64,000 nt of DNA from Diabrotica undecimpunctata (Eukaryota; Arthropoda; Insecta; Coleoptera; Chrysomelidae). The notes beneath the pieces were generated by a model. That model made no database searches. It worked only from the letters and a program-made list of their open reading frames with translations, and had not been told where the DNA came from. Each line of letters opens with the position of its first letter. Position 1 is the first letter of the stretch. The stretch spans positions 82,523,889 to 82,587,888 of the forward strand of contig NC_092808.1 in the NCBI RefSeq assembly GCF_040954645.1, in the 5' to 3' direction. Position numbers and translations under genes: made by a program. Below, piece by piece: positions 1,842 to 63,460 of this stretch.

Positions 1842-1892
1842 TATATTATTAATGCGATAGCGAATGCGATTAATTGAATAATAATATAGGCA

Positions 1893-2075
1893 AAATATAA
1901 TGGCATATCTCGCTAAACAGGAAAATAAAAAACAAAACAGGTATGTCGATGGAAGGCAACCGTAAATACGTATTTCTGACTATTTGGTCGGTATCAGTTT
2001 GGTCAGAAATAGTCTGCAATACGAAATAGGGCTGCTTTCCATTGATATAACGATGATAAAGGATTACATTTTTTA
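1893..2075. repeat. Diverged copy of the 322-bp repeat family
   Basis: Contains TAATGGCATATCTCGC, a GTCGATGGAAGGCAACCGTA block and TACGTATTTCTGACTATT. These match the units at 10360-12070 (TAATGGCATGTCTCGC, ATCGATGGAAGGCAACCGTA and TACGTATTTCTGACTATT) in the same order. It is a single, more diverged copy next to the Tc1 element, showing that the family is dispersed and not confined to the intron array. Confidence 0.75.
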
Positions 2076-5467: not shown

Positions 5468-5861
5468 TTGATTAGGAGAGTTAGAATAGTTTGGGATTTT
5501 GAGATTTCAATTAATATTGTTTGTACCATTAATTTTGATTGTTCACGTACGGAGAACAAAATTTTGAGAATCCTTATATGAGATTTGTTTATTGAAAACC
5601 TTTGAGTGTGAATTGTTTCATTATTTTTATTTCAATATATAGTGTTAGATCATATGTGTTTTTTATTATTCCGGTATTCTCTGGACCTTACCTTTCACAT
5701 GTAATAGCCTAGATATTGAAGCACGAATTTAACCCTGAGATAAAAGAATTAAAAATTGTGATAGAGTCATAATCATATCATTTAAATAATTTTAATTAAT
5801 CAAAAAAATTAATTAGCTAATTATTGCTTGGCGCACCAAGACTTTAAATATCACAATAACT

Positions 5862-5879
5862 GGCTTCCAAAACGTGGGG
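5862..5879 (+). other. Candidate tRNA primer-binding site
   Basis: TGGCTTCCAAAACGTGGG lies one base after the 5' LTR. It begins TGG, the complement of the CCA end of tRNAs, as minus-strand priming sites do. I could not name the tRNA. Confidence 0.5.
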
Positions 5880-6263
5880 CTTGAAAATATCGCAGCTTTA
5901 CATTTGAAGGAAGGGAAAGAGATCTGGAATAAGTACAGGTGATCCAGAGATAAAAACATATAACATTGAGGGAATTTGAATTTGAAAGTATTTTGACAAT
6001 TTTTCCAGAGAATATAAATTTGATTTATTGATTGATCGTAGTTAGTGGATATTTACTGCTATTGAATTATTTGATTTAATTTCTTTACCAATCGTACATT
6101 TGATATTTATTTTGAATTATTTGAATTTTACTGATTGCATATTTGATATTTGTCGTGAAAATTTAATACATTTGGGGAGAAATATTGTCGTGTTCTGAAA
6201 CATATAGAGTGTTGTAAAATTTCACATTTGGTGGGGACAAAAACAGTAACGAAAAGAAACAAC

Positions 6264-8246: not shown

Positions 8247-8701
8247 AAGGTACAGAAGAATTGTTGGCAACCGACGATAAAACAGAATGGAAGCAGGAAG
8301 AAAAAGAAGGTATTATCAGAGAAGTGAAAGGAATAGAAACATGGTGCTCGGAATACCAAAGGGAATTAGAGGATAAAAAGAAAACAGAAGAAAAAATGGC
8401 ACTGATGGACGAGAATCCAGAATTTTGTGAAGAAGTATTATGGACAGTGAACACATGTGAACAAAAGGTGGATGAAAGAAAAATAAATTGTGGAAAAAAC
8501 ATGGAGAAGGAAATAGAGAAGATTTTAGGAAACCATGGAGATTTTGTTAATAAAGTAAATCAAGTGGTTAAAAATTATGAACTTTCTTTTAAGGGAAAAT
8601 ACTTGGAAAAATTTAAAACGAAAATATATCCAATCCCGTATAAAGACAGGCAATATACGGGGTATTTTAACATTCACGACATTTGTCAGTATCATAAGTA
8701 G
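8132..8701 (+). pseudogene. Remnant of pol (N-terminal linker only), in the -1 frame of gag
   Basis: The -1 frame relative to gag is open from 8132 to TAG at 8699-8701 and overlaps the end of gag by 115 bases. The overlap includes an A-rich slippery tract near 8161-8200, so a -1 frameshift could produce a Gag-Pol fusion; the first ATG in this frame is at 8219. The product is highly charged (Glu/Lys) and then contains YLEKFKTKIYPIPYKDRQ. The FxxKxYPIPxxxR pattern is what Ty3/gypsy Pol proteins show just before the reverse transcriptase domain. About 16 residues later the frame ends, with no RT, RNase H or integrase. I infer an internal deletion that removed nearly all of pol and left its first segment. 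Confidence 0.6.
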
Positions 8702-8795
8702 ATTTTAATAACATAGTGAATAATTTGATCCTAGAAAACTTTTGTCATTTTTAAAATTTAACAAAGAGTTTTCGGCAGATCAAATGGCGGGGATT

Positions 8796-11266
<2,471 letters not shown>

Positions 11267-12070
11267 TTCCTTTTCTAACTTGGCTGCACCGTACTGAAGA
11301 CGACCAATAGTCAGAAATACGTATATACGGTTGCCTTCCATCGATATACCATTGTTGGTTTTCTGTTTTGCGAGACATGCCATTACTTTTTACTTTTATT
11401 ATTCACTCGCATTATCCTTTTTCATTTGTTTTAAACGTTTCAACGTTTGGCATTCCTTTCCCCAGGTAGCTGTAGCTTCCTCCGTGGTTGGTGTTAGTTG
11501 TTGCCCTGGAAACCATCAGGGTCTTCTAACTCTAATGCCACAAATTGGTTGCATTGCTCCTGTAGTGATCCTTTCCCAAGTTAATATGCTCCTTTTATAA
11601 CTTGGCTGCACCGTACTGAAGACGACCAATAGTCAGAAATACGTATATACGGTTGCCTTCCATCGATATACCATTTTTGGTTTTCTGTTTTGCGAGACAT
11701 GCCATTACTTTTTACTTTTATTATTCACTCGCATTATCCTTTTCCATTTGTTTTAAACGTTTCAACGTTTGGCATTCCTTTCCCCAGGTAGCTGTAGCTT
11801 CCTCCGTGGTTGGTGTTAGTTGTTGCCCTGGAAACCATCAGGGTCTTCTAGCTCTAATGCCACAAATTGGTTGCATTGCTCCTGTAGTGATCCTCTCCCA
11901 AGTTAATATGCTCCTTTTCTAACTTGGCTGCACCGTACTGAAGACGACCAATAGTCAGAAATACGTATATACGGTTGCCTTCCATCGATATACCATTTTT
12001 GGTTTTCTGTTTTGCGAGACATGCCATTACTTTTTACTTTTATTATTCACTCGCATTATCCTTTTCCATT
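11267..12070 (+). repeat. 322-bp tandem repeats, right arm in inverted orientation
   Basis: After a short unique junction (AATAACTTTCC, around 11260-11272) the same units continue reverse-complemented, again with a 322-bp period; the 89-codon frames start at 11331, 11653 and 11975. With the left arm this makes a head-to-head inverted repeat of roughly 0.8 kb per arm that runs into (TA)n at both outer ends. The last unit is cut off at TTTTCCATT by the TA tract. Confidence 0.92.
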
Positions 12071-12071
12071 T

Positions 12072-12197: not shown

Positions 12198-12345
12198 TGT
12201 TACGAAAGATTTATCCCACATAGGAAAAGTCCATTGACGAAAAAGAAGAAGTAGTTCGATGTCATCTTGAATGTTTTCGAACTACTTCTTCTTTTTCGTC
12301 AATGGACTTTTCCTATGTGGGATAAATCTTAAATCTCTCGTAACA
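12198..12345. mobile_element. 148-bp foldback element with a perfect 52-bp hairpin
   Basis: Starts TGTTACGA and ends TCGTAACA. Positions 12209-12260 and 12277-12328 are perfect reverse complements, with a loop of about 16 bases. Outside the stem the ends remain nearly symmetrical (TATTGTTACG / CGTAACAATA). This is the structure of a foldback or hairpin MITE. Its transcript would form a long perfect double-stranded stem. Confidence 0.8.
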
Positions 12346-14925: not shown

Positions 14926-15184
14926 ACTTTTTTGGAATCAGCTCATTTTTTTCGATCTAAAATAGTCATAAACTATTAGGTGTTACATTTAAAAAAAGAG
15001 CCGATGACGTCATCACCTTAATGTGTATCACCTTTTATAATGAAATTTTGTTGTAGAATGTAAAACATTGAATCTAAAAATCGACGTGTTTTAGATTTTT
15101 TTAAAAAGGCTTTTCATTTAGGAAATATCGAATTTAGATATAAAAAATAAAAATAAACATTTATATTTTCTTAGTTAATCCTAC

Positions 15185-15586
15185 CTGTCAACATCATGAT
15201 ATATATAAGACTTGCCAAAAATCCTCTAATTTTTTGATCAGCAATTTCGGCAATGTACATGGGAGCTGCAACGAATGCCATATCACCAGCCATTCCAGCA
15301 CAAAATCTGGCAACATAAATATATTCAATTTTAGGTGCTGTTGCCATTACAATCCAAGCCAACGCAGTCCCAGTAATTGACGTAATAAGAGATTTTTTTC
15401 TGCCTATTTTATCTACTAAGTACATTGTAGCTGGCAGACCACAGCACGCTCCAATCATTAGAACAGACTCTAGCCATTCAGCCTGCTCAGGTGTTACCTT
15501 CAGAGGCGTGTCCTCAGAGAGAAGAACTGGAATTGTTGGGGACGTCCAGCCATATTGCATGCCATCGGATATGGCCGAAATTGTTC
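15185..15586 (-). CDS. Tret1-like facilitated sugar (trehalose) transporter, internal exon
   Basis: Encodes helices 1 to 4 of the same transporter. The exon opens (after an ATTTATAG acceptor, AG at 15588-15587) with GTISAISDGMQYGWTSP, the helix-1 sequence typical of Tret1 proteins. Then come a first extracellular loop, VDKIGRKKS (the conserved loop between helices 2 and 3), VARFCAGMAGD and PMYIAEIADQKIRG, a family hallmark after helix 4. It ends in LTG at donor ACAG|GTAGGA. Both ends are phase 1. With the last exon about 464 codons are accounted for. Family members have roughly 450-550, so only a short amino-terminal exon is missing; it must lie at higher coordinates, probably beyond this window. 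No stop is seen. Confidence 0.9.
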
Positions 15587-26774: not shown

Positions 26775-29700
26775 TTAACATAATCCTTCACTAGGAAGGG
26801 GACACAATTTTGTTATCGTGCGTTTGAAAATCCCATCCTTAGTTTTAACAGATGCAATTCTCACTCGGCCATCTTTACCCGGAAAGACATCCATCACTCG
26901 TGCCAATGACCAGTAGAGAGGAGGGAGATTATCTTCTTTAACTAACACAAGGTCATTGGGTTCTAAATTTTTGAATGGGAGAAACCATTTTGGACGATTT
27001 TGAAGTCGATTCAGATAATCAGTCGACCACCTTTTCCAAAAAAGTTGCTGGAGCTTAGAGAGATTTTGCCAGATGCTAAGTCGATTTTCCGGGATAGATG
27101 TATACTCCTGGTCGGGTAGCGAGGTGAGAGACCTTCCAATCAGGAAGTGACCAGGGGTAAGATATGTGAAATCGGAGGGATCATTAGAGAGGGCACAAAT
27201 GGGCCGAGAATTAAGTACGGCTTCAATTTGGGTAAGCACGGTACTGAATTCCTCGAATGTAATTTTGAGATTGCCCAACAATCTATAGATATGATGTTTA
27301 GCGCTCTTTATAGCGCTCTCCCAGAGTCCTCCATGATGAGGAGATCGAGGTGGTATTGTTTTCCACCGAATTTGAGAGGAGGCTAAAAATGCCTGAATAG
27401 AAGAGTTAGGTTCCTTATTTTTCAAGAAATTATAGAGTTCGAATAACTGATTTTTAGCCCCAAGAAAGTTTGTCGCATTATCAGAGAATATAGTCTGAGG
27501 GTGACCTCTTCGACTGATAAAGCGCTTGAGAGTAAGAAGAAACGCTTCTGTTGTGAGCCCACTGACTAATTCTATATGAACCGCACGTGTGGACATACAG
27601 ACAAATAGAGCTATGTATGACTTTATCAAGGGACTTTTACGAAGTTTAGAGGCCTTTATTAGAAAGGGACCACCAAAATCCAAACCTACATGAGCAAAAA
27701 CTTGAGCAGAGCATAAGCGTTCCTTAGGTAAATCAGACATGATTTGAGCTAAGGGTTTGGCATTAAACTTGAAACAAACATGACATTCGTGGACTATCCT
27801 CTTAATCTCACGTAGACCATTCAAGGGCCAATATCTGAGGCGAACTTGAGAGAGAGTATTCTGAGGACCTGCATGATGGAGCCTGAGATGTTCTTTTTTG
27901 AGAATTAGACGAACAACATGATTTTTCGAGGGGAGGAGGAGAGGATATTTTTGATCAAAGGTAACTTCGGAATACCTAAGACGTCCACCTACACGGAGCA
28001 TTTCATTTTTGTCAAGAAAAGGAGCAAATTGTAAGAGAGACTTATTAGAAATAATCTTATTGCCTTTGAGATCAGCAATTTCTGAGGAAAAACATGAGTT
28101 TTGCAATAATTTTATAATTTTCATTTCGGCATTTTGAAGTTCAGATACTTCAAGTGCACCGGATAATTTTTGAGTGCCAGACTTTGCGTTATTACCAAAT
28201 CTGAGTACATAAGCTATAGTCCTTACATATTTCGTGAAACTGGAGAACCTTTCAGAAAGCATGACAAAGAAATCAAATTGAGCACTTCGAGTGTGAAGAA
28301 CAACTTTTCTTTCTTCAGGTAATTTATTAGAATTAAACTTCGGACTATATTCAGACAAATTTAGGTCAAATGTTTGCAAAAACTGAGGACCGTGAAACCA
28401 AAGAGTGGAGTTGAGTATGTTAGAGGGCATCATTCCTCTGGAGAGGATGTCAGCAGGGTTGTCTTTAGACTTTACGTGTCTCCAATGAGAGTGAGAAGAA
28501 TTTTCTTGAATTTGAGCTACCCTGTTGGCGACAAATTGATTCCATCTGGAGTGATGTGATCTGAGCCACGCCAAAACTATCTCAGAATCGCTCCACATGT
28601 TTATAGAGGTAACAGAGGGCAATTTATCCTTTATGATATCAACCACCTTTGTGGTGAGCTTGCTAGCCAATAAAGCACCCATAAGTTCCAGCCTTGGAAG
28701 CGTTATGGTCTTTAAAGGAGCAATACGACTTTTCGAAGCAATGAGAGAGCACGAGACATTTTTTGATTTGGAGATAACCCGTATATAACAACAAGCAGCA
28801 TATGCTTTCAAACTTGCGTCAGAAAAAGAGTGAATTTCAATAGAAGAAATTTCATGACATGAGAAAAGACATCTGGGTATGCTTATGTCTTTGAGAGCAG
28901 CGAGATCAGTTATAAACTTCAACCATTCATTTAAAATATTTGAATCCACGGAGTCATTCCAATTAATTTTAGAAATCCAAATTTTTTGCATAATAATTTT
29001 AGCAAGAACAGTTACGGGATTAATGAGCCCTTGTGGATCAAAAATTTGAGCGATAATAGAGAGTACTTCCCTTTTTGTGTAATTATCCTTTATTGATAAT
29101 TGAGGTACAGAAATTGAAAATGTATCAGTACTGGGGTTCCAACAGAGACCTAAAACCTTATTAGAAGCATTCTCTGGTGAAATAATATACGCAGAGTTTG
29201 TAGAGAGAGTAGAAACATTTTCCAAAAACATTTTTGAGTTAGAGCACCATTTATGAAGAGAAATGCATGCCTTGTTGAGTAGGTCAGTTATCTCATTATG
29301 AGCCTTAAGAAGAGTTTGCGTGTCATTGGCCCCATATAGAATGTCATCTACATAGCAGCCTGTTAAGAGAGCATCGGAAGCCAATGGGGAGTTGTTTTGA
29401 TGAGTTTTAGCTAATTCCATCAAACAACGAGTACTTTGAAAGCTTGCGCTTTTTGTTCCATAAGTTACGGTTTGAAGCTCAAGACATTCGATGTCCTGTT
29501 CTGGAGAATCCCGCCAGAGGATATTCTGGAGGAATGTGTGATCAGGATGAATTTGTACCTGCCTGTACATTTTTTGTATGTCGGAAGTGAAGACATAGGT
29601 ATACAATCTAAACCGAAGGAGAATGTCGAAAAGTTCAGGCTGAAGAGTTTTTCCTTTCAACAGGATGTCATTAAGAGAATAGCCACTGTAACTTTTCATG

Positions 29701-32051
29701 GAGCCATCAAAAACCACCCGTAATTTGGTAGTTAATGATTCTTCTTTTATGACAGAGTGATGAGGTAAAAAGTATTTATTTTCTAAGTGCACATTTGTGA
29801 GAGAAAGAGGAACCTTTTTGGCATGTCCAAGAGAAACATATTCATTGATGAATGCTTTATATTGAGAGTATACATTTTCGTGTTTTAAGAGTTTATTTTC
29901 TAAACTAATAAACCTTTTCCTAGCCATATTGTAAGAATTGCCCAGCATTTTATGTGCTGTTTCAGAAATGAGAGGAAGCTTTACCTGAAACCGACCAGAA
30001 GGTAGAATTTGAGTTGTTTCAGTAAATATTTGTTCAGCCAGATCCTCAGAGGAGGAGATTTTAACAGAGGGGGTCACTTCTTCGACTTCGAAGAATTGTC
30101 GAATTATATTATCGAGCTTATCTTCCTCAGATGTGGACTGGACAAATAAAGCGACATTTGACTGTGTAGGGGACAACTGTGAGCTATAAATTCCTTTGTG
30201 AAGTGCGTAAGGAGGTAAAGAACCAAACATAATGTACCCTAAGTGTGTGTTCTGGAGAACAGGGAGTCCTTTACCTAAACGTATTAAACCATCCGATAAC
30301 AATTCGCTATATATGTCACTGGCAAGAAGAAGATCTATATTTCCAGGGACAGAGTAGGTGGGATCTGCGAGAGTGACTGTAGAGGGGATATTAAATTTAC
30401 TTCTGTTTATGGATACCTGGGGGAGTCTACAAGTTATGTTGTCTAAAATAGCACAGGAGATTTTGAAACCATTACCATTTCTTTTGTATGGAAAAATTTC
30501 TAGATCGACCATTTTGTTCGAGAATGAACTATGTTCAGAGATAGTAGAGATTTGTAACCTTTTGCTGTAAGGAGAGAGATTTAATTTTTGAACCAAATCT
30601 TTAGAGACAAATGACGACTGAGATCCACTATCTAAAATACATCTAGCGTGTATGGGTACGCCATGCTTTGAATAAATAGTGACTAGAGCGGTTGCCAGCA
30701 GAACATCCTGCTTTATTGACAGAGCAGAAAGAGAAGTCATTACATTTGACACCTGAGAGGTTTGAGATTCAGAGAGAGAGACAGAATTACTTGGACCGGC
30801 TTCACCATCAGACCAAGTGTTTTGTACATTGCGAGAGGTTGCGTGATTTTGTCGTTGAAAAGATCTACTAGAAGAAGAGCTATTTTCATGGTCATTGTGC
30901 AAGAGTGTGTGATGCCTTTTCTTGCATATACCACATAAACGTTGAGACGAACAATTTTGTGAAAAGTGTTTAGTTCCTAAACAGTTGCGACATAGTTTGT
31001 TTTCATTAACAAATTTATACTTATCCTGTAAGAAAAGATTAGCAAATTTTGTGCATGCATAAATAGTGTGTGTAGTATTATTACAAAATACGCATGTTTT
31101 GGAGTACGAGTTAGTTTTGTTATTTGCCGAAGAGAAGAGAACCGTTTTAGAGTGAGTTTTGATAACTTTTTTATCGTTATTATCTGAGGAGTTTAACTTT
31201 TCCATAATGTCACACTTTTTTTCTAAAAAATCAAAGAATTGATTTAGCGTGGGAATATCTTTTGACCCTAACTCGTATTCGAAAGACCGGTGAGTGGTAA
31301 AGTCCACTTTTTGCAAAAATATTTCTATTAATAAGAGATCCCAATGCTCGATGGGTACATTCATATTTTTTAGCGCGAGTAAGGTCTGTTTTGCGGTGAC
31401 CAAAAATTCACGTAAGGCCTTTGCATTAGTTTTGACTAAGGATGGAACTTTCAAAAGACGCTGTATAAGCAAACTAATTACGCGCGATTTGTTTTCGTAG
31501 CGATTTCGAAGAGTCTCTAACGCGATTTGGAAGTTTTCTTCTAAAACTTGGATGTTTTCTACCAACTGGAGAGGTTCGTTGCGTAGAAAAGATTTGAGAT
31601 AAACAAAGCGCTGGACGTTGTTGAGTTCCGGGTTATTAATAATTAACGTCTCGAAGAGCTGATAGAATGCACTCCATTCTGAGAAGCATCCTGAGAAAGT
31701 TTGAATTTTAATTTCTGGAAGAGTCACTTTAGCACTAGCTAAACGTGGAGAAGTGGAACTGGACTGGTGTGAAAGAGGTTGGAGCATCTCCATTCTATGT
31801 TGAAGACCTGCTAGAGTTGAGAAGTACTTTTCTTCAATTTCTTCCCTATCGCGTTCTTCAGTGTTTGCTTCGTCCAGTTCCTCAATCTGATCCATGAGGT
31901 CATCATATTTGGCGTAACAATTCGTTAGTTCAGTATGACGGAGTTGGAACTGCAAGGGATCCGTTTCTTGAGCAGAGTTATCTCTTAACCAATTAGAGAT
32001 ACGAGAGATTTTTGATTTCAACGGTTTGCGTTGTTTCTTCAATTGATCCAT
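26775..32051 (-). CDS. BEL/Pao Gag-Pol polyprotein, intact (1,758 residues)
   Basis: Single open frame from ATG at 32051 to TAG at 26775-26777. Domains: N-terminal coiled region (1-100); Gag capsid-like DUF1759 region (110-290, TFSGCFSEWSAFYQLFE); two CCHC zinc knuckles (Cys320/323-His328-Cys333 and Cys354/357-His362-Cys367) with a third Cys/His cluster near 373-385; aspartic protease with Asp474-Ser-Gly; reverse transcriptase with FTSDIQKMYRQV and catalytic YVDD at 900-903; RNase H with acidic residues Asp1078, Glu1122 and Asp1155; integrase zinc site His1388/His1392/Cys1423/Cys1426 and catalytic Asp1458, Asp1524 and Glu1578; C-terminal DUF5641-like tail. This order and the missing envelope gene are typical of BEL/Pao. 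The proteins copy genomic RNA into DNA and integrate it. All key residues are present and no stop is seen. Confidence 0.96.
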   Translation of the reverse strand: MDQLKKQRKPLKSKISRISNWLRDNSAQETDPLQFQLRHTELTNCYAKYDDLMDQIEELDEANTEERDREEIEEKYFSTLAGLQHRMEMLQPLSHQSSSTSPRLASAKVTLPEIKIQTFSGCFSEWSAFYQLFETLIINNPELNNVQRFVYLKSFLRNEPLQLVENIQVLEENFQIALETLRNRYENKSRVISLLIQRLLKVPSLVKTNAKALREFLVTAKQTLLALKNMNVPIEHWDLLLIEIFLQKVDFTTHRSFEYELGSKDIPTLNQFFDFLEKKCDIMEKLNSSDNNDKKVIKTHSKTVLFSSANNKTNSYSKTCVFCNNTTHTIYACTKFANLFLQDKYKFVNENKLCRNCLGTKHFSQNCSSQRLCGICKKRHHTLLHNDHENSSSSSRSFQRQNHATSRNVQNTWSDGEAGPSNSVSLSESQTSQVSNVMTSLSALSIKQDVLLATALVTIYSKHGVPIHARCILDSGSQSSFVSKDLVQKLNLSPYSKRLQISTISEHSSFSNKMVDLEIFPYKRNGNGFKISCAILDNITCRLPQVSINRSKFNIPSTVTLADPTYSVPGNIDLLLASDIYSELLSDGLIRLGKGLPVLQNTHLGYIMFGSLPPYALHKGIYSSQLSPTQSNVALFVQSTSEEDKLDNIIRQFFEVEEVTPSVKISSSEDLAEQIFTETTQILPSGRFQVKLPLISETAHKMLGNSYNMARKRFISLENKLLKHENVYSQYKAFINEYVSLGHAKKVPLSLTNVHLENKYFLPHHSVIKEESLTTKLRVVFDGSMKSYSGYSLNDILLKGKTLQPELFDILLRFRLYTYVFTSDIQKMYRQVQIHPDHTFLQNILWRDSPEQDIECLELQTVTYGTKSASFQSTRCLMELAKTHQNNSPLASDALLTGCYVDDILYGANDTQTLLKAHNEITDLLNKACISLHKWCSNSKMFLENVSTLSTNSAYIISPENASNKVLGLCWNPSTDTFSISVPQLSIKDNYTKREVLSIIAQIFDPQGLINPVTVLAKIIMQKIWISKINWNDSVDSNILNEWLKFITDLAALKDISIPRCLFSCHEISSIEIHSFSDASLKAYAACCYIRVISKSKNVSCSLIASKSRIAPLKTITLPRLELMGALLASKLTTKVVDIIKDKLPSVTSINMWSDSEIVLAWLRSHHSRWNQFVANRVAQIQENSSHSHWRHVKSKDNPADILSRGMMPSNILNSTLWFHGPQFLQTFDLNLSEYSPKFNSNKLPEERKVVLHTRSAQFDFFVMLSERFSSFTKYVRTIAYVLRFGNNAKSGTQKLSGALEVSELQNAEMKIIKLLQNSCFSSEIADLKGNKIISNKSLLQFAPFLDKNEMLRVGGRLRYSEVTFDQKYPLLLPSKNHVVRLILKKEHLRLHHAGPQNTLSQVRLRYWPLNGLREIKRIVHECHVCFKFNAKPLAQIMSDLPKERLCSAQVFAHVGLDFGGPFLIKASKLRKSPLIKSYIALFVCMSTRAVHIELVSGLTTEAFLLTLKRFISRRGHPQTIFSDNATNFLGAKNQLFELYNFLKNKEPNSSIQAFLASSQIRWKTIPPRSPHHGGLWESAIKSAKHHIYRLLGNLKITFEEFSTVLTQIEAVLNSRPICALSNDPSDFTYLTPGHFLIGRSLTSLPDQEYTSIPENRLSIWQNLSKLQQLFWKRWSTDYLNRLQNRPKWFLPFKNLEPNDLVLVKEDNLPPLYWSLARVMDVFPGKDGRVRIASVKTKDGIFKRTITKLCPLPSEGLC

Positions 32052-41099: not shown

Positions 41100-41595
41100 T
41101 ATCATATCTTGCTTATTATAAAACTTTTTTTTAATTGTAATGAAATTACTATCAGAATTATGTTCTAGTAATAATTATGTATAGTTTTGCTAATAAGTAA
41201 TTTGTATTTGTTAGTATGTATTTCATGAAAATAAATAAGACCTTGTAAAACACTTTATTTATAATTGCTATATTATAAACTTTTATTTTTTGTAGGTTTT
41301 CTTTTGGACAAATTATGATAACACGTCTTTATTATTACTTTAGACTTCATTATGTAAAATGATGAGATAAAAAATATTTAGTTAGTTATTTTATACTTAA
41401 TAAATTGTGTAGAATAATAAAAAGTCAAAATACTATATTATAGTCTTTGGTATAAACATATTTTTTAATACAAACATAATAGACAAAAATATAATAACCA
41501 GACAAATTTTTATCACTGTGCCTTCTACAACTGGCAAAGCAAACAGCTTGATGAATTACTCGACAAAGGAATCTAAAATATGCATTCCACCTGAC
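41100..41595. other. No gene recognised
   Basis: AT-rich sequence only. Confidence 0.5.
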
Positions 41596-41596
41596 G

Positions 41597-41599
<3 letters not shown>

Positions 41600-41695
<96 letters not shown>
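41600..41695. repeat. (TA)n microsatellite
   Basis: Pure TA run. Confidence 0.97.
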
Positions 41696-44444: not shown

Positions 44445-45426
44445 ATGGAAAATGATACGTGGATTGACTACCTAAAAAAGCTATATACAGGAGAAGAACA
44501 AACGACGCTAGAACCGGAAACATCAGAAATTACAACATATAAAGAACTTAATATAAATGTACAGGAAGTTCGGAAAATACTTGAAAACCTGAGGAACAGA
44601 AAAGCAGCAGGTCAAGACGAGATACCAAACGAATACTGAAATATTGTGGAGCAGCAATGACAGAACAATTAACAATATTAATTAATAAAATTATAAAACA
44701 CAATAAAATGCCGGAAGAATGGAGAAGGAGCGAACTAACTCTACTATATAAAAAAGGAGATAAAAACAGACAAAAAACTACAGAGGTATAAACTTGTTAA
44801 ATACTACGCTAAAACTTACAACTAAAATTTTACAAGTGCTAATTAATCACAATATAAGTTTAGCAGATGAACAACCGGGTTTTTTAAGTGGTAGATCGTG
44901 TACAGATGCAAAATTCGTTATAAAGCAAATTACTGAGAAATCACTGAAGTATAATAGACTAGCATTTCTGTGTCTGATTGACCTAAAGAAAGCGTTTGAC
45001 AGAGTAAGACTGAAAGATGTAATCCATCTTCTGCATAATAGAAAAGCTCTCCTAAATATTATAAAAACTATCGAAAACATCGACCAAAACAACAAAATTG
45101 AAGTCAGAATAGAGGGACAACTTACAGGACCTATAGAAATAGGCAGCAGAATAAGACAAGGGGATTCGTTGAGATTGAGCCCCATGCTCTTCAATTTGAT
45201 CATGGATCAAATCATCAAAAGCGTTAACAAACGAAGAAGATACAGAATGGGAAACAAAGAAATTAAAGTACTCCGTTACGCAGATGACGCAATATTAATA
45301 GCCCAAGATGAAGATAGTCTGCAAAGATTTGTCCACAAATTTAACATAAGAGCAAAAGAATTTAATATGACAATCTCATCTCACAAAACTAAAACAATAG
45401 TAGTCAGCAAAGGACCACAGATGTAA
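44445..45426 (+). pseudogene. Reverse transcriptase domain of the RTE element
   Basis: It starts with ENLRNRKAAGQDEIPNEY (about 44585-44637), the KAxGPDxIPxE motif. After frame breaks, an open stretch from about 44794 continues with LADEQPGFLSGRSCTDAKF, LIDLKKAFDRV (first catalytic Asp), RIRQGDSLRLSPMLFNLI and YADDAILIA (catalytic YADD) to TAA at 45424. All three catalytic aspartates remain, but the upstream frameshifts and stops break the gene. A partial second copy of the KTKTIVVSKEP region occurs at 45655-45760. Confidence 0.85.
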
Positions 45427-52791: not shown

Positions 52792-55700
52792 TTAAGAACG
52801 GCTATGAATAACTATTCTGATGAGCTTTATTAAAGCGAAATACGTATCAATAGATACATAGACGCTTTGAACGTGAAATAAAATCTTTTCTGTCTTTTTC
52901 ATTTTCTTCGGATCTACTCTGTATGAGTACGAGAAACAAATTCGTTAGGATTTCTGCCTAGATGAATAGACATGTCGTGGAATGCAAATTTTAGATTCCC
53001 CATGTCTTCTTTAACATCTTTATCATCGTCTGGTCATGTCTTGCAATTTTTAGAAGGCTCCAGATTAAAGCAGAAATCTGAATTTGTTTCGAAACTATCT
53101 TACCGATTTTTCTATCAGATGTCGCTATTGCGTCCATAACGAAGTCATGTTATTGTTACTTCTAATAAGACAGAGAATTTTATTTTTCACGTTAAGAACG
53201 GCTATGAATAACTATTCTGATGAGCTTTATTAAAGCGAAATACGTATCAATAGATACATAGACGCTTTGAACGTGAAATAAAATCTTTTCTGTCTTTTTC
53301 ATTTTCTTCGGATCTACTCTGTATGAGTACGAGAAACAAATTCGTTAGGATTTCTGCCTAGATGAATAGACATGTCGTGGAATGCAAATTTTAGATTCCC
53401 CATGTCTTCTTTAACATCTTTATCATCGTCTGGTCATGTCTTGCAATTTTTAGAAGGCTCCAGATTAAAGCAGAAATCTGAATTTGTTTCGAAACTATCT
53501 TACCGATTTTTCTATCAGATGTCGCTATTGCGTCCATAACGAAGTCATGTTATTGTTACTTCTAATAAGACAGAGAATTTTATTTTTCACGTTAAGAACG
53601 GCTATGAATAACTATTCTGATGAGCTTTATTAAAGCGAAATACGTATCAATAGATACATAGACGCTTTGAACGTGAAATAAAATCTTTTCTGTCTTTTTC
53701 ATTTTCTTCGGATCTACTCTGTATGAGTACGAGAAACAAATTCGTTAGGATTTCTGCCTAGATGAATAGACATGTCGTGGAATGCAAATTTTAGATTCCC
53801 CATGTCTTCTTTAACATCTTTATCATCGTCTGGTCATGTCTTGCAATTTTTAGAAGGCTCCAGATTAAAGCAGAAATCTGAATTTGTTTCGAAACTATCT
53901 TACCGATTTTTCTATCAGATGTCGCTATTGCGTCCATAACGAAGTCATGTTATTGTTACTTCTAATAAGACAGAGAATTTTATTTTTCACGTTAAGAACG
54001 GCTATGAATAACTATTCTGATGAGCTTTATTAAAGCGAAATACGTATCAATAGATACATAGACGCTTTGAACGTGAAATAAAATCTTTTCTGTCTTTTTC
54101 ATTTTCTTCGGATCTACTCTGTATGAGTACGAGAAACAAATTCGTTAGGATTTCTGCCTAGATGAATAGACATGTCGTGGAATGCAAATTTTAGATTCCC
54201 CATGTCTTCTTTAACATCTTTATCATCGTCTGGTCATGTCTTGCAATTTTTAGAAGGCTCCGGATTAAAGCAGAAATCTGAATTTGTTTCGAAACTATCT
54301 TACCGATTTTTCTATCAGATGTCGCTATTGCGTCCATAACGAAGTCATGTTATTGTTACTTCTAATAAGACAGAGAATTTTATTTTTCACGTTAAGAACG
54401 GCTATGAATAACTATTCTGATGAGCTTTATTAAAGCGAAATACGTATCAATAGATACATAGACGCTTTGAACGTGAAATAAAATCTTTTCTGTCTTTTTC
54501 ATTTTCTTCGGATCTACTCTGTATGAGTACGAGAAACAAATTCGTTAGGATTTCTGCCTAGATGAATAGACATGTCGTGGAATGCAAATTTTAGATTCCC
54601 CATGTCTTCTTTAACATCTTTATCATCGTCTGGTCATGTCTTGCAATTTTTAGAAGGCTCCAGATTAAAGCAGAAATCTGAATTTGTTTCGAAACTATCT
54701 TACCGATTTTTCTATCAGATGTCGCTATTGCGTCCATAACGAAGTCATGTTATTGTTACTTCTAATAAGACAGAGAATTTTATTTTTCACGTTAAGAACG
54801 GCTATGAATAACTATTCTGATGAGCTTTATTAAAGCGAAATACGTATCAATAGATACATAGACGCTTTGAACGTGAAATAAAATCTTTTCTGTCTTTTTC
54901 ATTTTCTTCGGATCTACTCTGTATGAGTACGAGAAACAAATTCGTTAGGATTTCTGCCTAGATGAATAGACATGTCGTGGAATGCAAATTTTAGATTCCC
55001 CATGTCTTCTTTAACATCTTTATCATCGTCTGGTCATGTCTTGCAATTTTTAGAAGGCTCCAGATTAAAGCAGAAATCTGAATTTGTTTCGAAACTATCT
55101 TACCGATTTTTCTATCAGATGTCGCTATTGCGTCCATAACGAAGTCATGTTATTGTTACTTCTAATAAGACAGAGAATTTTATTTTTCACGTTAAGAACG
55201 GCTATGAATAACTATTCTGATGAGCTTTATTAAAGCGAAATACGTATCAATAGATACATAGACGCTTTGAACGTGAAATAAAATCTTTTCTGTCTTTTTC
55301 ATTTTCTTCGGATCTACTCTGTATGAGTACGAGAAACAAATTCGTTAGGATTTCTGCCTAGATGAATAGACATGTCGTGGAATGCAAATTTTAGATTCCC
55401 CATGTCTTCTTTAACATCTTTATCATCGTCTGGTCATGTCTTGCAATTTTTAGAAGGCTCCAGATTAAAGCAGAAATCTGAATTTGTTTCGAAACTATCT
55501 TACCGATTTTTCTATCAGATGTCGCTATTGCGTCCATAACGAAGTCATGTTATTGTTACTTCTAATAAGACAGAGAATTTTATTTTTCACGTTAAGAACG
55601 GCTATGAATAACTATTCTGATGAGCTTTATTAAAGCGAAATACGTATCAATAGATACATAGACGCTTTGAACGTGAAATAAAATCTTTTCTGTCTTTTTC

Positions 55701-58700
55701 ATTTTCTTCGGATCTACTCTGTATGAGTACGAGAAACAAATTCGTTAGTATTTCTGCCTAGATGAATAGACATGTCGTGGAATGCAAATTTTAGATTCCC
55801 CATGTCTTCTTTAACATCTTTATCATCGTCTGGTCATGTCTTGCAATTTTTAGAAGGCTCCAGATTAAAGCAGAAATCTGAATTTGTTTCGAAACTATCT
55901 TACCGATTTTTCTATCAGATGTCGCTATTGCGTCCATAACGAAGTCATGTTATTGTTACTTCTAATAAGACAGAGAATTTTATTTTTCGCGTTAAGAACG
56001 GCTATGAATAACTATTCTGATGAGCTTTATTAAAGCGAAATACGTATCAATAGATACATAGACGCTTTGAACGTGAAATAAAATCTTTTCTGTCTTTTTC
56101 ATCTTCTTCGGATCTACTCTGTATGAGTACGAGAAACAAATTCGTTAGGATTTCTGCCTAGATGAATAGACATGTCGTGGAATGCAAATTTTAGATTCCC
56201 CATGTCTTCTTTAACATCTTTATCATCGTCTGGTCATGTCTTGCAATTTTTAGAAGGCTCCAGATTAAAGCAGAAATCTGAATTTGTTTCGAAACTATCT
56301 TACCGATTTTTCTATCAGATGTCGCTATTGCGTCCATAACGAAGTCATGTTATTGTTACTTCTAATAAGACAGAGAATTTTATTTTTCACGTTAAGACCG
56401 GCTATGAATAACTATTCTGATGAGCTTTATTAAAGCGAAATACGTATCAATAGATACATAGACGCTTTGAACGTGAAATAAAATCTTTTCTGTCTTTTTC
56501 ATTTTCTTCGGATCTACTCTGTATGAGTACGAGAAACAAATTCGTTAGGATTTCTGCCTAGATGAATAGACATGTCGTGGAATGCAAATTTTAGATTCCC
56601 CATGTCTTCTTTAACATCTTTATCATCGTCTGGTCATGTCTTGCAATTTTTAGAAGGCTCCAGATTAAAGCAGAAATCTGAATTTGTTTCGAAACTATCT
56701 TACCGATTTTTCTATCAGATGTCGCTATTGCGTCCATAACGAAGTCATGTTATTGTTACTTCTAATAAGACAGAGAATTTTATTTTTCACGTTAAGAACG
56801 GCTATGAATAACTATTCTGATGAGCTTTATTAAAGCGAAATACGTATCAATAGATACATAGACGCTTTGAACGTGAAATAAAATCTTTTCTGTCTTTTTC
56901 ATTTTCTTCGGATCTACTCTGTATGAGTACGAGAAACAAATTCGTTAGGATTTCTGCCGAGATAAATAGACATGTCGTGGAATGCAAATTTTAGATTCCC
57001 CATGTCTTCTTTAACATCTTTATCATCGTCTGGTCATGTCTTGCAATTTTTAGAAGGCTCCAGATTAAAGCAGAAATCTGAATTTGTTTCGAAACTATCT
57101 TACCGATTTTTCTATCAGATGTCGCTATTGCGTCCATAACGAAGTCATGTTATTGTTACTTCTAATAAGACAGAGAATTTTATTTTTCACGTTAAGAACG
57201 GCTATGAATAACTATTCTGATGAGCTTTATTAAAGCGAAATACGTATCAATAGATACATAGACGCTTTGAACGTGAAATAAAATCTTTTCTGTCTTTTTC
57301 ATTTTCTTCGGATCTACTCTGTATGAGTACGAGAAACAAATTCGTTAGGATTTCTGCCTAGATGAATAGACATGTCGTGGAATGCAAATTTTAGATTCCC
57401 CATGTCTTCTTTAACATCTTTATCATCGTCTGGTCATGTCTTGCAATTTTTAGAAGGCTCCAGATTAAAGCAGAAATCTGAATTTGTTTCGAAACTATCT
57501 TACCGATTTTTCTATCAGATGTCGCTATTGCGTCCATAACGAAGTCATGTTATTGTTACTTCTAATAAGACAGAGAATTTTATTTTTCACGTTAAGAACG
57601 GCTATGAATAACTATTCTGATGAGCTTTATTAAAGCGAAATACGTATCAATAGATACATAGACGCTTTGAACGTGAAATAAAATCTTTTCTGTCTTTTTC
57701 ATTTTCTTCGGATCTACTCTGTATGAGTACGAGAAACAAATTCGTTAGGATTTCTGCCTAGATGAATAGACATGTCGTGGAATGCAAATTTTAGATTCCC
57801 CATGTCTTCTTTAACATCTTTATCATCGTCTGGTCATGTCTTGCAATTTTTAGAAGGCTCCAGATTAAAGCAGAAATCTGAATTTGTTTCGAAACTATCT
57901 TACCGATTTTTCTATCAGATGTCGCTATTGCGTCCATAACGAAGTCATGTTATTGTTACTTCTAATAAGACAGAGAATTTTATTTTTCACGTTAAGAACG
58001 GCTATGAATAACTATTCTGATGAGCTTTATTAAAGCGAAATACGTATCAATAGATACATAGACGCTTTGAACGTGAAATAAAATCTTTTCTGTCTTTTTC
58101 ATTTTCTTCGGATCTACTCTGTATGAGTACGAGAAACAAATTCGTTAGGATTTCTGCCTAGATGAATAGAAATGTCGTGGAATGCAAATTTTAGATTCCC
58201 CATGTCTTCTTTAACATCTTTATCATCGTCTGGTCATGTCTTGCAATTTTTAGAAGGCTCCAGATTAAAGCAGAAATCTGAATTTGTTTCGAAACTATCT
58301 TACCGATTTTTCTATCAGATGTCGCTATTGCGTCCATAACGAAGTCATGTTATTGTTACTTCTAATAAGACAGAGAATTTTATTTTTCACGTTAAGAACG
58401 GCTATGAATAACTATTCTGATGAGCTTTATTAAAGCGAAATACGTATCAATAGATACATAGACGCTTTGAACGTGAAATAAAATCTTTTCTGTCTTTTTC
58501 ATTTTCTTCGGATCTACTCTGTATGAGTACGAGAAACAAATTCGTTAGGATTTCTGCCTAGATGAATAGACATGTCGTGGAATGCAAATTTTAGATTCCC
58601 CATGTCTTCTTTAACATCTTTATCATCGTCTGGTCATGTCTTGCAATTTTTAGAAGGCTCCAGATTAAAGCAGAAATCTGAATTTGTTTCGAAACTATCT

Positions 58701-61700
58701 TACCGATTTTTCTATCAGATGTCGCTATTGCGTCCATAACGAAGTCATGTTATTGTTACTTCTAATAAGACAGAGAATTTTATTTTTCACGTTAAGAACG
58801 GCTATGAATAACTATTCTGATGAGCTTTATTAAAGCGAAATACGTATCAATAGATACATAGACGCTTTGAACGTGAAATAAAATCTTTTCTGTCTTTTTC
58901 ATTTTCTTCGGATCTACTCTGTATGAGTACGAGAAACAAATTCGTTAGTATTTCTGCCTAGATGAATAGACATGTCGTGGAATGCAAATTTTAGATTCCC
59001 CATGTCTTCTTTAACATCTTTATCATCGTCTGGTCATGTCTTGCAATTTTTAGAAGGCTCCAGATTAAAGCAGAAATCTGAATTTGTTTCGAAACTATCT
59101 TACCGATTTTTCTATCAGATGTCGCTATTGCGTCCATAACGAAGTCATGTTATTGTTACTTCTAATAAGACAGAGAATTTTATTTTTCACGTTAAGAACG
59201 GCTATGAATAACTATTCTGATGAGCTTTATTAAAGCGAAATACGTATCAATGGATACATAGACGCTTTGAACGTGAAATAAAATCTTTTCTGTCTTTTTC
59301 ATTTTCTTCGGATCTACTCTGTATGAGTACGAGAAACAAATTCGTTAGGATTTCTGCCTAGATGAATAGACATGTCGTGGAATGCAAATTTTAGATTCCC
59401 CATGTCTTCTTTAACATCTTTATCATCGTCTGGTCATGTCTTGCAATTTTTAGAAGGCTCCAGATTAAAGCAGAAATCTGAATTTGTTTCGAAACTATCT
59501 TACCGATTTTTCTATCAGATGTCGCTATTGCGTCCATAACGAAGTCATGTTATTGTTACTTCTAATAAGACAGAGAATTTTATTTTTCACGTTAAGAACG
59601 GCTATGAATAACTATTCTGATGAGCTTTATTAAAGCGAAATACGTATCAATAGATACATAGACGCTTTGAACGTGAAATAAAATCTTTTCTGTCTTTTTC
59701 ATTTTCTTCGGATCTACTCTGTATGAGTACGAGAAACAAATTCGTTAGGATTTCTGCCTAGATGAATAGACATGTCGTGGAATGCAAATTTTAGATTCCC
59801 CATGTCTTCTTTAACATCTTTATCATCGTCTGGTCATGTCTTGCAATTTTTAGAAGGCTCCAGATTAAAGCAGAAATCTGAATTTGTTTCGAAACTATCT
59901 TACCGATTTTTCTATCAGATGTCGCTATTGCGTCCATAACGAAGTCATGTTATTGTTACTTCTAATAAGACAGAGAATTTTATTTTTCACGTTAAGAACG
60001 GCTATGAATAACTATTCTGATGAGCTTTATTAAAGCGAAATACGTATCAATAGATACATAGACGCTTTGAACGTGAAATAAAATCTTTTCTGTCTTTTTC
60101 ATTTTCTTCGGATCTACTCTGTATGAGTACGAGAAACAAATTCGTTAGGATTTCTGCCTAGATGAATAGACATGTCGTGGAATGCAAATTTTAGATTCCC
60201 CATGTCTTCTTTAACATCTTTATCATCGTCTGGTCATGTCTTGCAATTTTTAGAAGGCTCCAGATTAAAGCAGAAATCTGAATTTGTTTCGAAACTATCT
60301 TACCGATTTTTCTATCAGATGTCGCTATTGCGTCCATAACGAAGTCATGTTATTGTTACTTCTAATAAGACAGAGAATTTTATTTTTCACGTTAAGAACG
60401 GCTATGAATAACTATTCTGATGAGCTTTATTAAAGCGAAATACGTATCAATAGATACATAGACGCTTTGAACGTGAAATAAAATCTTTTCTGTCTTTTTC
60501 ATTTTCTTCGGATCTACTCTGTATGAGTACGAGAAACAAATTCGTTAAGATTTCTGCCTAGATGAATAGACATGTCGTGGAATGCAAATTTTAGATTCCC
60601 CATGTCTTCTTTAACATCTTTATCATCGTCTGGTCATGTCTTGCAATTTTTAGAAGGCTCCAGATTAAAGCAGAAATCTGAATTTGTTTCGAAACTATCT
60701 TACCGATTTTTCTATCAGATGTCGCTATTGCGTCCATAACGAAGTCATGTTATTGTTACTTCTAATAAGACAGAGAATTTTATTTTTCACGTTAAGAACG
60801 GCTATGAATAACTATTCTGATGAGCTTTATTAAAGCGAAATACGTATCAATAGATACATAGACGCTTTGAACGTGAAATAAAATCTTTTCTGTCTTTTTC
60901 ATTTTCTTCGGATCTACTCTGTATGAGTACGAGAAACAAATTCGTTAGGATTTCTGCCTAGATGAATAGACATGTCGTGGAATGCAAATTTTAGATTCCC
61001 CATGTCTTCTTTAACATCTTTATCATCGTCTGGTCATGTCTTGCAATTTTTAGAAGGCTCCAGATTAAAGCAGAAATCTGAATTTGTTTCGAAACTATCT
61101 TACCGATTTTTCTATCAGATGTCGCTATTGCGTCCATAACGAAGTCATGTTATTGTTACTTCTAATAAGACAGAGAATTTTATTTTTCACGTTAAGAACG
61201 GCTATGAATAACTATTCTGATGAGCTTTATTAAAGCGAAATACGTATCAATAGATACATAGACGCTTTGAACGTGAAATAAAATCTTTTCTGTCTTTTTC
61301 ATTTTCTTCGGATCTACTCTGTATGAGTACGAGAAACAAATTCGTTAGGATTTCTGCCTAGATGAATAGACATGTCGTGGAATGCAAATTTTAGATTCCC
61401 CATGTCTTCTTTAACATCTTTATCATCGTCTGGTCATGTCTTGCAATTTTTAGAAGGCTCCAGATTAAAGCAGAAATCTGAATTTGTTTCGAAACTATCT
61501 TACCGATTTTTCTATCAGATGTCGCTATTGCGTCCATAACGAAGTCATGTTATTGTTACTTCTAATAAGACAGAGAATTTTATTTTTCACGTTAAGAACG
61601 GCTATGAATAACTATTCTGATGAGCTTTATTAAAGCGAAATACGTATCAATAGATACATAGACGCTTTGAACGTGAAATAAAATCTTTTCTGTCTTTTTC

Positions 61701-62902
61701 ATTTTCTTCGGATCTACTCTGTATGAGTACGAGAAACAAATTCGTTAGGATTTCTGCCTAGATGAATAGACATGTCGTGGAATGCAAATTTTAGATTCCC
61801 CATGTCTTCTTTAACATCTTTATCATCGTCTGGTCATGTCTTGCAATTTTTAGAAGGCTCCAGATTAAAGCAGAAATCTGAATTTGTTTCGAAACTATCT
61901 TACCGATTTTTCTATCAGATGTCGCTATTGCGTCCATAACGAAGTCATGTTATTGTTACTTCTAATAAGACAGAGAATTTTATTTTTCACGTTAAGAACG
62001 GCTATGAATAACTATTCTGATGAGCTTTATTAAAGCGAAATACGTATCAATAGATACATAGACGCTTTGAACGTGAAATAAAATCTTTTCTGTCTTTTTC
62101 ATTTTCTTCGGATCTACTCTGTATGAGTACGAGAAACAAATTCGTTAGGATTTCTGCCTAGATGAATAGACATGTCGTGGAATGCAAATTTTAGATTCCC
62201 CATGTCTTCTTTAACATCTTTATCATCGTCTGGTCATGTCTTGCAATTTTTAGAAGGCTCCAGATTAAAGCAGAAATCTGAATTTGTTTCGAAACTATCT
62301 TACCGATTTTTCTATCAGATGTCGCTATTGCGTCCATAACGAAGTCATGTTATTGTTACTTCTAATAAGACAGAGAATTTTATTTTTCACGTTAAGAACG
62401 GCTATGAATAACTATTCTGATGAGCTTTATTAAAGCGAAATACGTATCAATAGATACATAGACGCTTTGAACGTGAAATAAAATCTTTTCTGTCTTTTTC
62501 ATTTTCTTCGGATCTACTCTGTATGAGTACGAGAAACAAATTCGTTAGGATTTCTGCCTAGATGAATAGACATGTCGTGGAATGCAAATTTTAGATTCCC
62601 CATGTCTTCTTTAACATCTTTATCATCGTCTGGTCATGTCTTGCAATTTTTAGAAGGCTCCAGATTAAAGCAGAAATCTGAATTTGTTTCGAAACTATCT
62701 TACCGATTTTTCTATCAGATGTCGCTATTGCGTCCATAACGAAGTCATGTTATTGTTACTTCTAATAAGACAGAGAATTTTATTTTTCACGTTAAGAACG
62801 GCTATGAATAACTATTCTGATGAGCTTTATTAAAGCGAAATACGTATCAATAGATACATAGACGCTTTGAACGTGAAATAAAATCTTTTCTGTCTTTTTC
62901 AT
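52792..62902 (+). repeat. 400-bp satellite array, 25 complete copies plus a partial
   Basis: TTAAGAACGGCTATGAATAA recurs at exactly 400-bp intervals from 52792 to 62792, giving 25 whole monomers and a final piece of 111 bp. Reading along the array I found only about eleven single-base variants (54262, 55749, 55989, 56103, 56398, 56959, 56964, 58171, 58949, 59252, 60548), so copies are more than 99.9% alike and no indel is seen. Monomers have no long open frame. Each starts with a hammerhead-like RNA motif. The array begins and ends within or just past that motif, giving 26 motif copies. Confidence 0.97.
53185..53278 (+). ncRNA. Hammerhead-ribozyme-like motif of the satellite (representative copy; repeated every 400 bp)
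   Basis: Conserved core CTGATGA (53217-53223), a perfect helix II GCTTT/AAAGC with loop ATT (53224-53236), then GAAA (53237-53240). A stem-loop GTATC-AATA-GATAC (53244-53257) forms most of helix III and leads to ATA|GAC, so the predicted cleavage is after the A at 53260 (an NUH triplet, AUA). An outer helix TTTCACGTT (53185-53193) / AACGTGAAA (53270-53278) plus weaker pairing AAGAACGGC/GACGCTTTG closes the structure as helix I. Odd points: a 14-nt unpaired insert before CTGATGA and a two-base bulge or mismatch in helix III. Hammerheads in satellite DNA are known from salamanders, schistosomes and cave crickets, where they cut multimeric transcripts into monomers. Activity here is inferred only. 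Confidence 0.6.
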
Positions 62903-63014
62903 AAATTTTTAGTCTTTATTTCTAACATACATCCAGTTGAAGAGCTTCAATTGGAGTCCAAGTTTAAAAAGTTCACAAAATTACATATTTGATAACTGTC
63001 ATAACAGACCATCT

Positions 63015-63460
63015 AGATTCAGACATAGAAATAAAATAGTATAGCTATGACTAAAACTACGTCTATGAAAGTGAAGACATTTCTTTGCAATAATCATCTC
63101 AGTTTAAAACTAAGACAAAGAATGGTAAAGTGCTATATTTGCTCTATACTTTTGTATGGAACAGAAGTGTGGACACTAAAAGTATCAAATATGAACGGAA
63201 TTGCAGCATTGGAAATGTAGATTTATAGACAGATGCTGAAGATACCTTGGACAACAAAAGAAACAACTAATGAAGAAGTACTAGGGAGAGTCAACAAGGA
63301 GAATTACCGAAGACTGTTAAACACCGGAAAATTCCTGGCAATCCTTAATGGTAATATAGAAGGTCGTACAGGTGTAAGCAAAAAACAGATTTCTTGGTTA
63401 AAAACATTCGTGAATGGTGTTCGCCAACGTTGGATAAGAAGAAGAAGGAATTAAACTTAG
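63015..63460 (+). pseudogene. RTE-type reverse transcriptase C-terminus
   Basis: Plus-strand frame: LSLKLRQRMVKCYICSILLY then GTEVWTLKVSNMNGIAALEM, a stop, IYRQMLKIPWTTKETTNEEV and SKKQISWLKTFVNGV. This is the usual order of the RTE carboxyl region (RxRxxKCYVxSxLLYGxExWTL ... EMWxYRRMLxIPW). Only one in-frame stop breaks the part read, so it is younger than most copies here. It lies just right of the satellite. Confidence 0.85.

Follow-up and report, generated by a model that had tools for sequence, protein, structure and literature searches.

A 400-bp hammerhead satellite of Diabrotica undecimpunctata as a probable retrozyme with head-to-head, two-sited insertions

A window of 64,000 nucleotides from the beetle Diabrotica undecimpunctata (contig NC_092808.1, positions 82,523,889 to 82,587,888; coordinates below count from its first letter) contains a long array of 400-bp units, each carrying what an earlier note, made from the letters alone, took for a hammerhead-ribozyme-like motif. 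The array raises the question of whether it is a satellite in which the motif is a passenger, or an element whose RNA is cut by the ribozyme and copied back into DNA, and if so by what route. The reading that we favour, with a probability of about 0.78, is that the array is a metazoan non-long-terminal-repeat (non-LTR) retrozyme, inserted by target-primed reverse transcription of an RNA circle, probably by the enzyme of a Penelope-like element (PLE). Published work is cited by its PMC number, PMC7229834 being Cervera & de la Pena 2020.

Tandem Repeats Finder (TRF) gave a period of 400, 25.3 copies and 99% matches for the array, and CTGATGAGCTTTATTAAAGCGAAA was found 26 times at exact 400-bp spacing, in agreement with the period, the 25 complete copies and the 26 cores that the earlier note had listed. 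The copy number depends on the assembly. The units, which have a GC content of 33.5% (i.e. below 50%), are almost uniform: there are 11 differences from the majority sequence in 10,111 bases (0.11% divergence), 16 of the 25 complete units are identical, and of the ten variants nine are each confined to a single unit and one is common to units 8 and 16. Counting the first base downstream of the predicted cut as unit position 1, the array ends at position 54 on its 3' side (62902) and at position 344 on its 5' side. The sequence directly to its right (~63000-63450) resembles, by eye, the C-terminal region of a long interspersed nuclear element (LINE). The array and the hammerhead of one of its units are laid out as follows:

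52792..62902, + strand: probable retrozyme array of family A, 400-bp unit, 25.3 copies, single orientation (TRF).
53185..53278, + strand: complete type I hammerhead as modelled, one per 400 bp; outer helix I strands 53185-53193 and 53270-53278, inner CTATG/CATAG 53202-53206 and 53257-53261.
53212..53253, + strand: catalytic part; helix I CTATT (53212-53216) with AATAG (53249-53253), core CTGATGA (53217-53223), helix II (53224-53236), GAA (53237-53239), helix III with the palindromic loop, ATACGTAT (53240-53247), and C17 (53248).
53248|53249, + strand: predicted cut AUC|AAUAG, from the structure model.

Modelled in this way, every unit of the window array carries a canonical type I hammerhead, for which cleavage is predicted from structure and covariation. 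The core CUGAUGAG...CGAAA encloses helix II (GCUUU/AAAGC, capped by the loop AUU), helix III consists of 2 bp (A15.1-U16.1, then U-A) closed by the palindromic loop ACGU, and helix I of five Watson-Crick pairs (CUAUU/AAUAG), with the core CUGANGA...GAA exact in 26/26 copies. Outward from helix I lie the internal loop AUA/AAUAA, the pairing CUAUG/CAUAG, some short pairs and a 9-bp helix, UUUCACGUU/AACGUGAAA. The outer helix that the earlier note had described (TTTCACGTT/AACGTGAAA) is present in the array, except that the first of the 26 motifs is without the 5' strand because the array begins within it. Its suggestion of a hammerhead in every monomer also held up: a strict type I descriptor matched all 26 copies on the + strand of the window, with no match on the - strand, none outside the array on either strand and none in 40 Mb of simulated sequence (one strand). 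When the flanks were shuffled with core and helix II kept fixed, 0 of 3000 sequences reached the native constrained energy, whereas a weaker criterion (only helix I of at least 5 bp and helix III of at least 2 bp) was satisfied by 884 of 20,000. Three of the variants in the array fall within the hammerhead and, by inspection, none disrupts a pair of the model; A398G and A61G convert A-U into G-U, and A7C alters an existing mismatch.

The element is not confined to the window. Pattern searches of the 1.74-Gb assembly containing it gave 1632+1630 (at least 3262) matches to the family A core with up to 2 mismatches, 1283+1250 matches to the core of a second family, B, with up to 3 mismatches, and 1442+1527 matches to a 14-nt helix II pattern, where nearly all of the 100 matches listed belonged to one family, C. 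The reversed-pattern control gave 0 in each case, and the patterns of the three families match at least 8764 places in the genome. Families B (322 bp) and C (386 bp) carry the helix III of family A, and core position 7 may be A, G, C or T (70 cores counted). The best common stretch between families A and B was GAAATACGTAT (E 0.053); BLAST of A against C returned nothing at E≤0.01, short common stretches being seen by eye only. The family B hammerhead, CUGAAGA-CGACCAAUAGUCA-GAAA-UACGUAUA|UACGGU with ACCGUA upstream, has six helix I pairs, and its helix II begins at the base with a C.A mismatch; an axolotl hammerhead with a mismatch at this place has been reported (PMC7229834). The relaxed descriptor that recovers family B gave 3 matches in 20 Mb of simulated sequence (one strand). 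In family C, helix I is CCGUU paired with AACGG or AGCGG (two loci), and the longest array among the 100 places listed has at least ten 386-bp units on one strand (C1:45563403-45566909). There were 0 matches to relatives in viral and prokaryote genome contigs, collections that are not built for insect DNA and are uninformative on distribution. Families B and C are also represented in the window:

10355..11259, - strand: family B left arm, 322-bp unit, 3 hammerheads, beginning against an (AT)n tract.
11268..12071, + strand: family B right arm, 3 hammerheads, head-to-head with the left arm.
1880..1998, - strand: family B relic, 81% identity over 119 aligned bases, hammerhead core broken.
41503..41601, no strand assigned: family C-related relic, 81% identity over 99 aligned bases, adjoining an (AT)n tract.

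To the right of the family B insertion (~12215-12320) there is a long near-perfect hairpin, recognised by eye, possibly a small inverted-repeat transposon.

Comparison of the families provided evidence for the structure. Families A and B align without gaps over 52 nt, with standard pairs in 22 of 24 cells (91.7%), and 6 of the 12 pairs are changed on both sides, a number matched in 7 of 500 shuffles; shifting the partners by 1-3 columns left 20.8-37.5% paired. Across five variants of families A, B and C, both sides are changed in 6 of 10 helix I and II pairs (6 of 12 when all pairs are counted), and 97.5% of 40 cells are paired (counting helix I, helix III and only the base pair of helix II), and the helix II changes are compensated between families. 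Within family A, 100 hammerhead copies from 44 loci were reduced to 60 locus-haplotypes, which are of common ancestry and therefore do not represent independent events, and in which the core and helix II, being fixed by the search pattern, are uninformative. Among these 60, the helix I pairs are formed in 59, 58, 57, 58 and 53, with pair 3 being G-C in 44 and A-U in 12; the helix III pairs are formed in 59 and 58, A15.1-U16.1 being A-U in 59; H17 is C in 25, A in 35 and never G; and TACGTAT, which lies outside the search pattern, is intact in 57. Each pair of the second helix, CTATG/CATAG, is formed in 52-55, with no both-sided standard changes.

The same rows allowed a decision on where the cut should lie. 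The earlier note had placed it at AUA|GAC, with GTATC/GATAC as helix III and a 14-nt insert before the core, and had suggested a distinct ribozyme variant. Such a cut leaves only 2 bp of helix I where AUC|AAUAG gives five Watson-Crick pairs, its pairing has an energy of -12.3 as against -15.8 kcal/mol, and the last pair of the GTATC/GATAC hairpin is formed in 28 and lost in 32 of the 60 locus-haplotypes (the other four, formed in 57-59, are kept because they are located in near-invariant letters). With the cut at AUC|AAUAG the insert becomes unnecessary, and since the canonical type I placement fits better by pairing, energy and covariation, the array is not a distinct ribozyme variant. A type III arrangement, taken from the alignment of Rfam's weak match, was not adopted, as inspection showed no helix I hairpin between a UH and the core.

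We then turned to how copies sit in the genome, using for family A the 44 clusters found among the first 100 places listed (contig C1, first 70 Mb, exact core matches), which are a sample only. Core orientation was single in 19, one-way tandem in 11 and minus-then-plus in 14, with no plus-then-minus cluster. A similar bias was seen for family B (87 clusters: 8 divergent, 3 one-way, 0 convergent) and family C (67 clusters, clustered at 5 kb: 10 divergent, 7 one-way, 1 convergent), the sole convergent pair of family C being 4.3 kb apart with cores that differ. Mapping of the unit to the family A loci revealed a two-armed structure in 23 of the 44, and 65 of 67 outer ends fell into two bands of the unit, 45-66 (P1) or 245-270 (P2); these bands were drawn after inspection of the end table and make up 12% of the unit, and the ends other than the outer ones were scattered (11 of 67 within the bands). 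One P1 end and one P2 end were present in 22 of the 23 two-armed loci, the exception (L048) ending at 53 and 241. Two of these loci, L010 and L011, share both their ends and their 13-bp repeat, are similar in their flanks for 45 bp on either side, and are best counted as one insertion, making the figure 21 of 22. The one-armed loci, 21 in number, end at P1 in 18 cases, at P2 in 2 and elsewhere in 1; L017 and L043, scored as one-armed, have by eye a short piece with a P2-like end beside the flank. The right end of the window array, by its derived unit position, also lies within the P1 band. The two positions are given here for one unit:

53302..53305, + strand: P1, putative reverse-transcription start, unit 54-57, end of CTTTTTCATTT.
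53506..53510, + strand: P2, putative second start, unit 258-262, CTTACCGATTT; found on the opposite arm in two-armed genomic insertions.

Target duplications were measured by comparing the two junction windows of a locus (30 bases outside and 8 inside) for their longest direct repeat, which was at least 8 bp in 39 of the 44 loci, some not flush with the junction, and at least 10 bp in 34; the corresponding values for mismatched left-right pairings were 7.1% and 0.85%. The repeat was 12 or 13 bp, and mostly AT-rich, in 27 of the 44, and one locus (L051) sits within an AT repeat. Unit sequence extends to the duplicated target in most of the 44 loci and thus leaves no room for long terminal repeats (LTRs). 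In the window, the outer ends of the family B insertion are at unit 74 and 102, 28 nt apart, with (AT)n on both sides; three further, less clean family B loci have a readable end at 74, 108 and 96, each beside AT repeats, and in two family C loci a target duplication, and ends of two distinct kinds, can be seen by eye.

The units within an insertion also proved to be alike. Eight loci, the window array included, have at least two complete units, and in four of them the complete units are identical across both arms: L015 (3 units), L020 (5), L027 (5) and L029 (6), where all six units are of 401 nt with the same three changes. There are two private changes in L041 (7 units, both arms), one in the one-armed L032 (2 units) and two in the one-armed L042 (2 units). 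Young insertions differ among themselves by 3-12 positions, except for L015, L032 and the window array. The best reading of this uniformity is that a circle made from one unit was lapped several times from both sides; the homogeneity data would also be compatible with a source array that was already uniform, or with conversion inside the insertion.

The combination of head-to-head copies, target duplication, fixed internal starts and an AT-rich target is characteristic of PLEs, and is found in full for family A and on few loci for families B and C. In vitro, the protein of an anole PLE cuts both strands of its target and extends them, with a preference for AT-rich sites, and begins complementary DNA (cDNA) at two positions inside the RNA, between which the genomic 'tail' lies (PMC11167929); for the Penelopes of a rotifer, head-to-head is described as the commonest inverted arrangement, and duplications of 8, 9 and 10 bp are given (PMC3846280). 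Machinery of this type is present in the beetle genome. GIY-YIG matches were obtained for 73 of 150 scored, out of 6686 candidates, and one open reading frame (in locus L055, C1:6638200-6642400) has both an RVT_1 match of 29.0 bits, just under the cut-off of 29.6, and a GIY-YIG match of 27.6 bits (cut-off 22.6). It lies between inverted head-to-head arms of 370 bp that are 99% complementary and each contain a hammerhead-like motif, and AT repeats flank the element on both sides. Families A and B, dissimilar in other respects, have in common CTTTTYCATTT, ending at a putative start site (position 56 in A, 102 in B) and absent from both strands of 103,500 background bases of the window. Given the presence of PLEs and the PLE-like traits of the insertions, PLE-type machinery as a class is therefore the best candidate for mobilisation.

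The scheme we propose is as follows. Transcripts would be cut into 400-nt monomers by the type I hammerhead at AUC|AAUAG, and the monomers joined into circles, presumably by a host ligase as for the published family. The retrozyme link drawn by the earlier note is supported, its transcription and RNA circles being inferred. The circle would then serve as template for target-primed reverse transcription, probably by a PLE enzyme, with one target 3' end starting cDNA at unit position ~56 (P1) and the other, if used, at ~260 (P2). Each cDNA may lap the circle several times before the two meet in the middle, and the outcome would be an array that is head-to-head, has a single unit sequence and is flanked by target duplications of 12-13 bp.

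Several observations weigh against this scheme. The covariance-model search, which the earlier note had set beforehand as a refuting check, was negative: no Rfam family scored above its cut-off anywhere in the window (the best, RF00008, reached 18.5 bits against a cut-off of 48.5), nor in 20 genome loci with families A, B, C and the PLE. This scoring was run without a known relative as control and gives a score rather than a biochemical feature, and on the sequence evidence the compensatory changes appear to outweigh it in judging hammerhead identity. The fold of lowest predicted energy is a different one from the hammerhead (-23.9 as against -19.3 kcal/mol with the hammerhead imposed, 4.6 apart) and helix II is present in ~13% of the predicted ensemble. 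For truncated transcripts that include 120 nt of upstream sequence, helix II rose to as much as 88% with helix I below 3%, so that predicted folding of such transcripts gave no proof that the hammerhead is favoured co-transcriptionally. AUACGUAU is self-complementary, and an 8-bp helix III is therefore possible between two copies; such a double form has a predicted energy of -47.5 kcal/mol compared with -31.6 for two singles, the best two-copy fold being a different one (-54.4), and palindromic loops of a similar kind have been described in other repeat-type hammerheads (PMC3088659). Among the insertions, 21 of the 44 are one-armed by BLAST. No clear target duplication was found at the window array, the longest stretch in common being 6 bp; it is a one-armed, unusually long insertion without a recognisable target duplication, and DNA-level expansion afterwards may account for part of its length. 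Average differences of only 0.9-1.5 bases separate L015, L032 and the window array, and so homogeneity distinguishes some insertions and not these. Lastly, CTTTTYCATTT is not in L055, the one PLE examined.

How far do other explanations account for these data? The 0.11% divergence of the 25-unit array looks like that of a homogenised satellite, and the Rfam result and the minimum-energy fold would suit an ordinary satellite in which an old motif is carried along inactive and copies spread by unequal crossing-over or as excised circles. We consider this improbable in view of the dispersed insertions with 12-13-bp target duplications and two fixed end positions, the absence of convergent pairs from 44 clusters, and the compensatory changes. 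Still less probable, to the point of being very remote, is an integrated viroid-like or hepatitis-delta-like circular RNA agent. The unit is small and has a ribozyme, and the circle is predicted to be more stable than shuffles (z ~-4.4, 0/100 as low), but the descriptor detected no minus-strand hammerhead, the longest stop-free stretch round the circle is 57 codons, and copies are dispersed over the genome in their thousands, with target duplications among those sampled.

The two remaining explanations concern parts of the process rather than the nature of the element, and both seem to us unlikely although clearly less so than the foregoing. In the first a single target-primed cDNA folds back and copies itself, giving a head-to-head array. 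The inner ends at the centre junctions are no more than 40 nt apart on the unit in 10 of 23 cases, compared with 20% expected, which weighs against the scheme and is the pattern that hairpin-aided joining or self-priming would give, and the rotifer PLE paper infers self-priming from palindromic junctions (PMC3846280); self-priming is thus a live rival for part of the process. A second arm made in this way should end at P1, however, and 22 of the 23 two-armed insertions have a P1 and a P2 end. The other possibility is that the template is an uncut multimeric transcript and not a circle, as might be thought from the fact that arrays cross the cleavage point without a scar. Insertion-specific variants fixed in all units of both arms, such as the six 401-nt units of L029, fit a one-unit template better; a mixed source array would yield a mixture of units, whereas a uniform source array would not. 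The circle-templated, two-sited reading remains the one that we prefer.

Metazoan non-LTR retrozymes have been reported in insects among others, with circles demonstrated, and it was proposed that such a circle, once primed, is the template of tandem cDNA, probably with the help of PLEs (PMC7229834). The families described here resemble them in having tandem units of ~150-450 bp (400, 322 and 386 bp), each with a type I hammerhead, a GC content below 50% and, in the loci sampled, target duplications of more than 4 bp; they differ in that many of the insertions are head-to-head, and in having two fixed start sites and a single founder unit for each insertion. The main text of PMC7229834 has no mention of head-to-head, inverted or opposite orientation, or of an insertion site. 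With PLEs they have in common head-to-head inverted copies (with 8-10 bp duplications there), AT-rich targets, two internal start sites, a hammerhead motif and an optional 3' 'tail' on one arm (PMC11167929, PMC3846280), the ends 28 nt apart of the window's family B insertion resembling such a 'tail'. Unlike PLEs, they have no coding sequence, and their hammerhead is a complete type I and not a minimal one; moreover, the family A starts are ~204 nt apart, with one on each side in nearly every two-armed insertion, whereas in vitro there was no strand difference (PMC11167929). The hammerhead of the Dolichopoda pDo500 satellite is alike, by its description, in belonging to an insect satellite and having compensatory changes in stems I and II, and no analysis of dispersed insertions appears in the accessible part of that paper (PMC2837043). 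Amphibian satellite hammerheads likewise have a short helix III and a palindromic loop pairable between copies, helix III here being of 2 bp as described for invertebrate motifs (PMC7229834). In the openly licensed literature nothing joins retrozymes to head-to-head arrangement (subscription papers lie mostly outside this search), no beetle retrozyme appears by title among papers on hammerhead ribozymes and beetles, and the paper found on retrozymes and target-primed reverse transcription concerns, by title, LTR elements. Thus the element type, a metazoan non-LTR retrozyme, is known, and the insertion architecture is new against the accessible literature.

The remainder of the window contains other mobile elements and gene fragments. 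A 57-bp tandem repeat, identical in TRF score and consensus, occurs twice at 5051-9618 at a distance of 4.4 kb, and between the two is a 672-amino-acid open reading frame with a retropepsin-like domain (6228-8246, +), probably an LTR element with its two LTRs. An uninterrupted BEL/Pao polyprotein of 1758 amino acids (DUF1759, Peptidase_A17 and integrase parts) is encoded at 26775-32051 (-), and a piece of a LINE-type reverse transcriptase (RVT_1) at 44794-45426 (+). The helix-turn-helix part of a Tc1/mariner-type transposase-like fragment lies at 501-893 (+), all of its matches being under the curated cut-off. Sugar transporter exons (Sugar_tr) are found at 2962-3657 (-) and 15171-15560 (-). 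For the former the best named matches were from Ignelater and Callosobruchus (52% identity), Agrilus (47%) and Photinus (41%), unnamed ones reaching 76%, and the matches include trehalose-transporter-like beetle proteins.

For retrozymes, the return to DNA is the step at issue: circles had been demonstrated earlier, and the circle as a primed template, with help from PLEs, had only been proposed (PMC7229834). Genome structure alone predicts two start sites, one per strand, duplications of 12-13 bp and a single founder unit per insertion. Curated Rfam thresholds also miss all three families in every locus tried, despite the at least 8764 pattern matches. We put forward, as a generalisation whose chances we judge to be about even, that in animals a retrozyme insertion is made from a single RNA circle, by target-primed reverse transcription that is two-sited and uses both strands, one from P1 and the other from P2, leaving a one-founder head-to-head array. 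If this is true, the ribozyme-made circle would be the intermediate of genomic insertion, and the arrays described here would be genomic evidence for PLE enzymes moving retrozymes.

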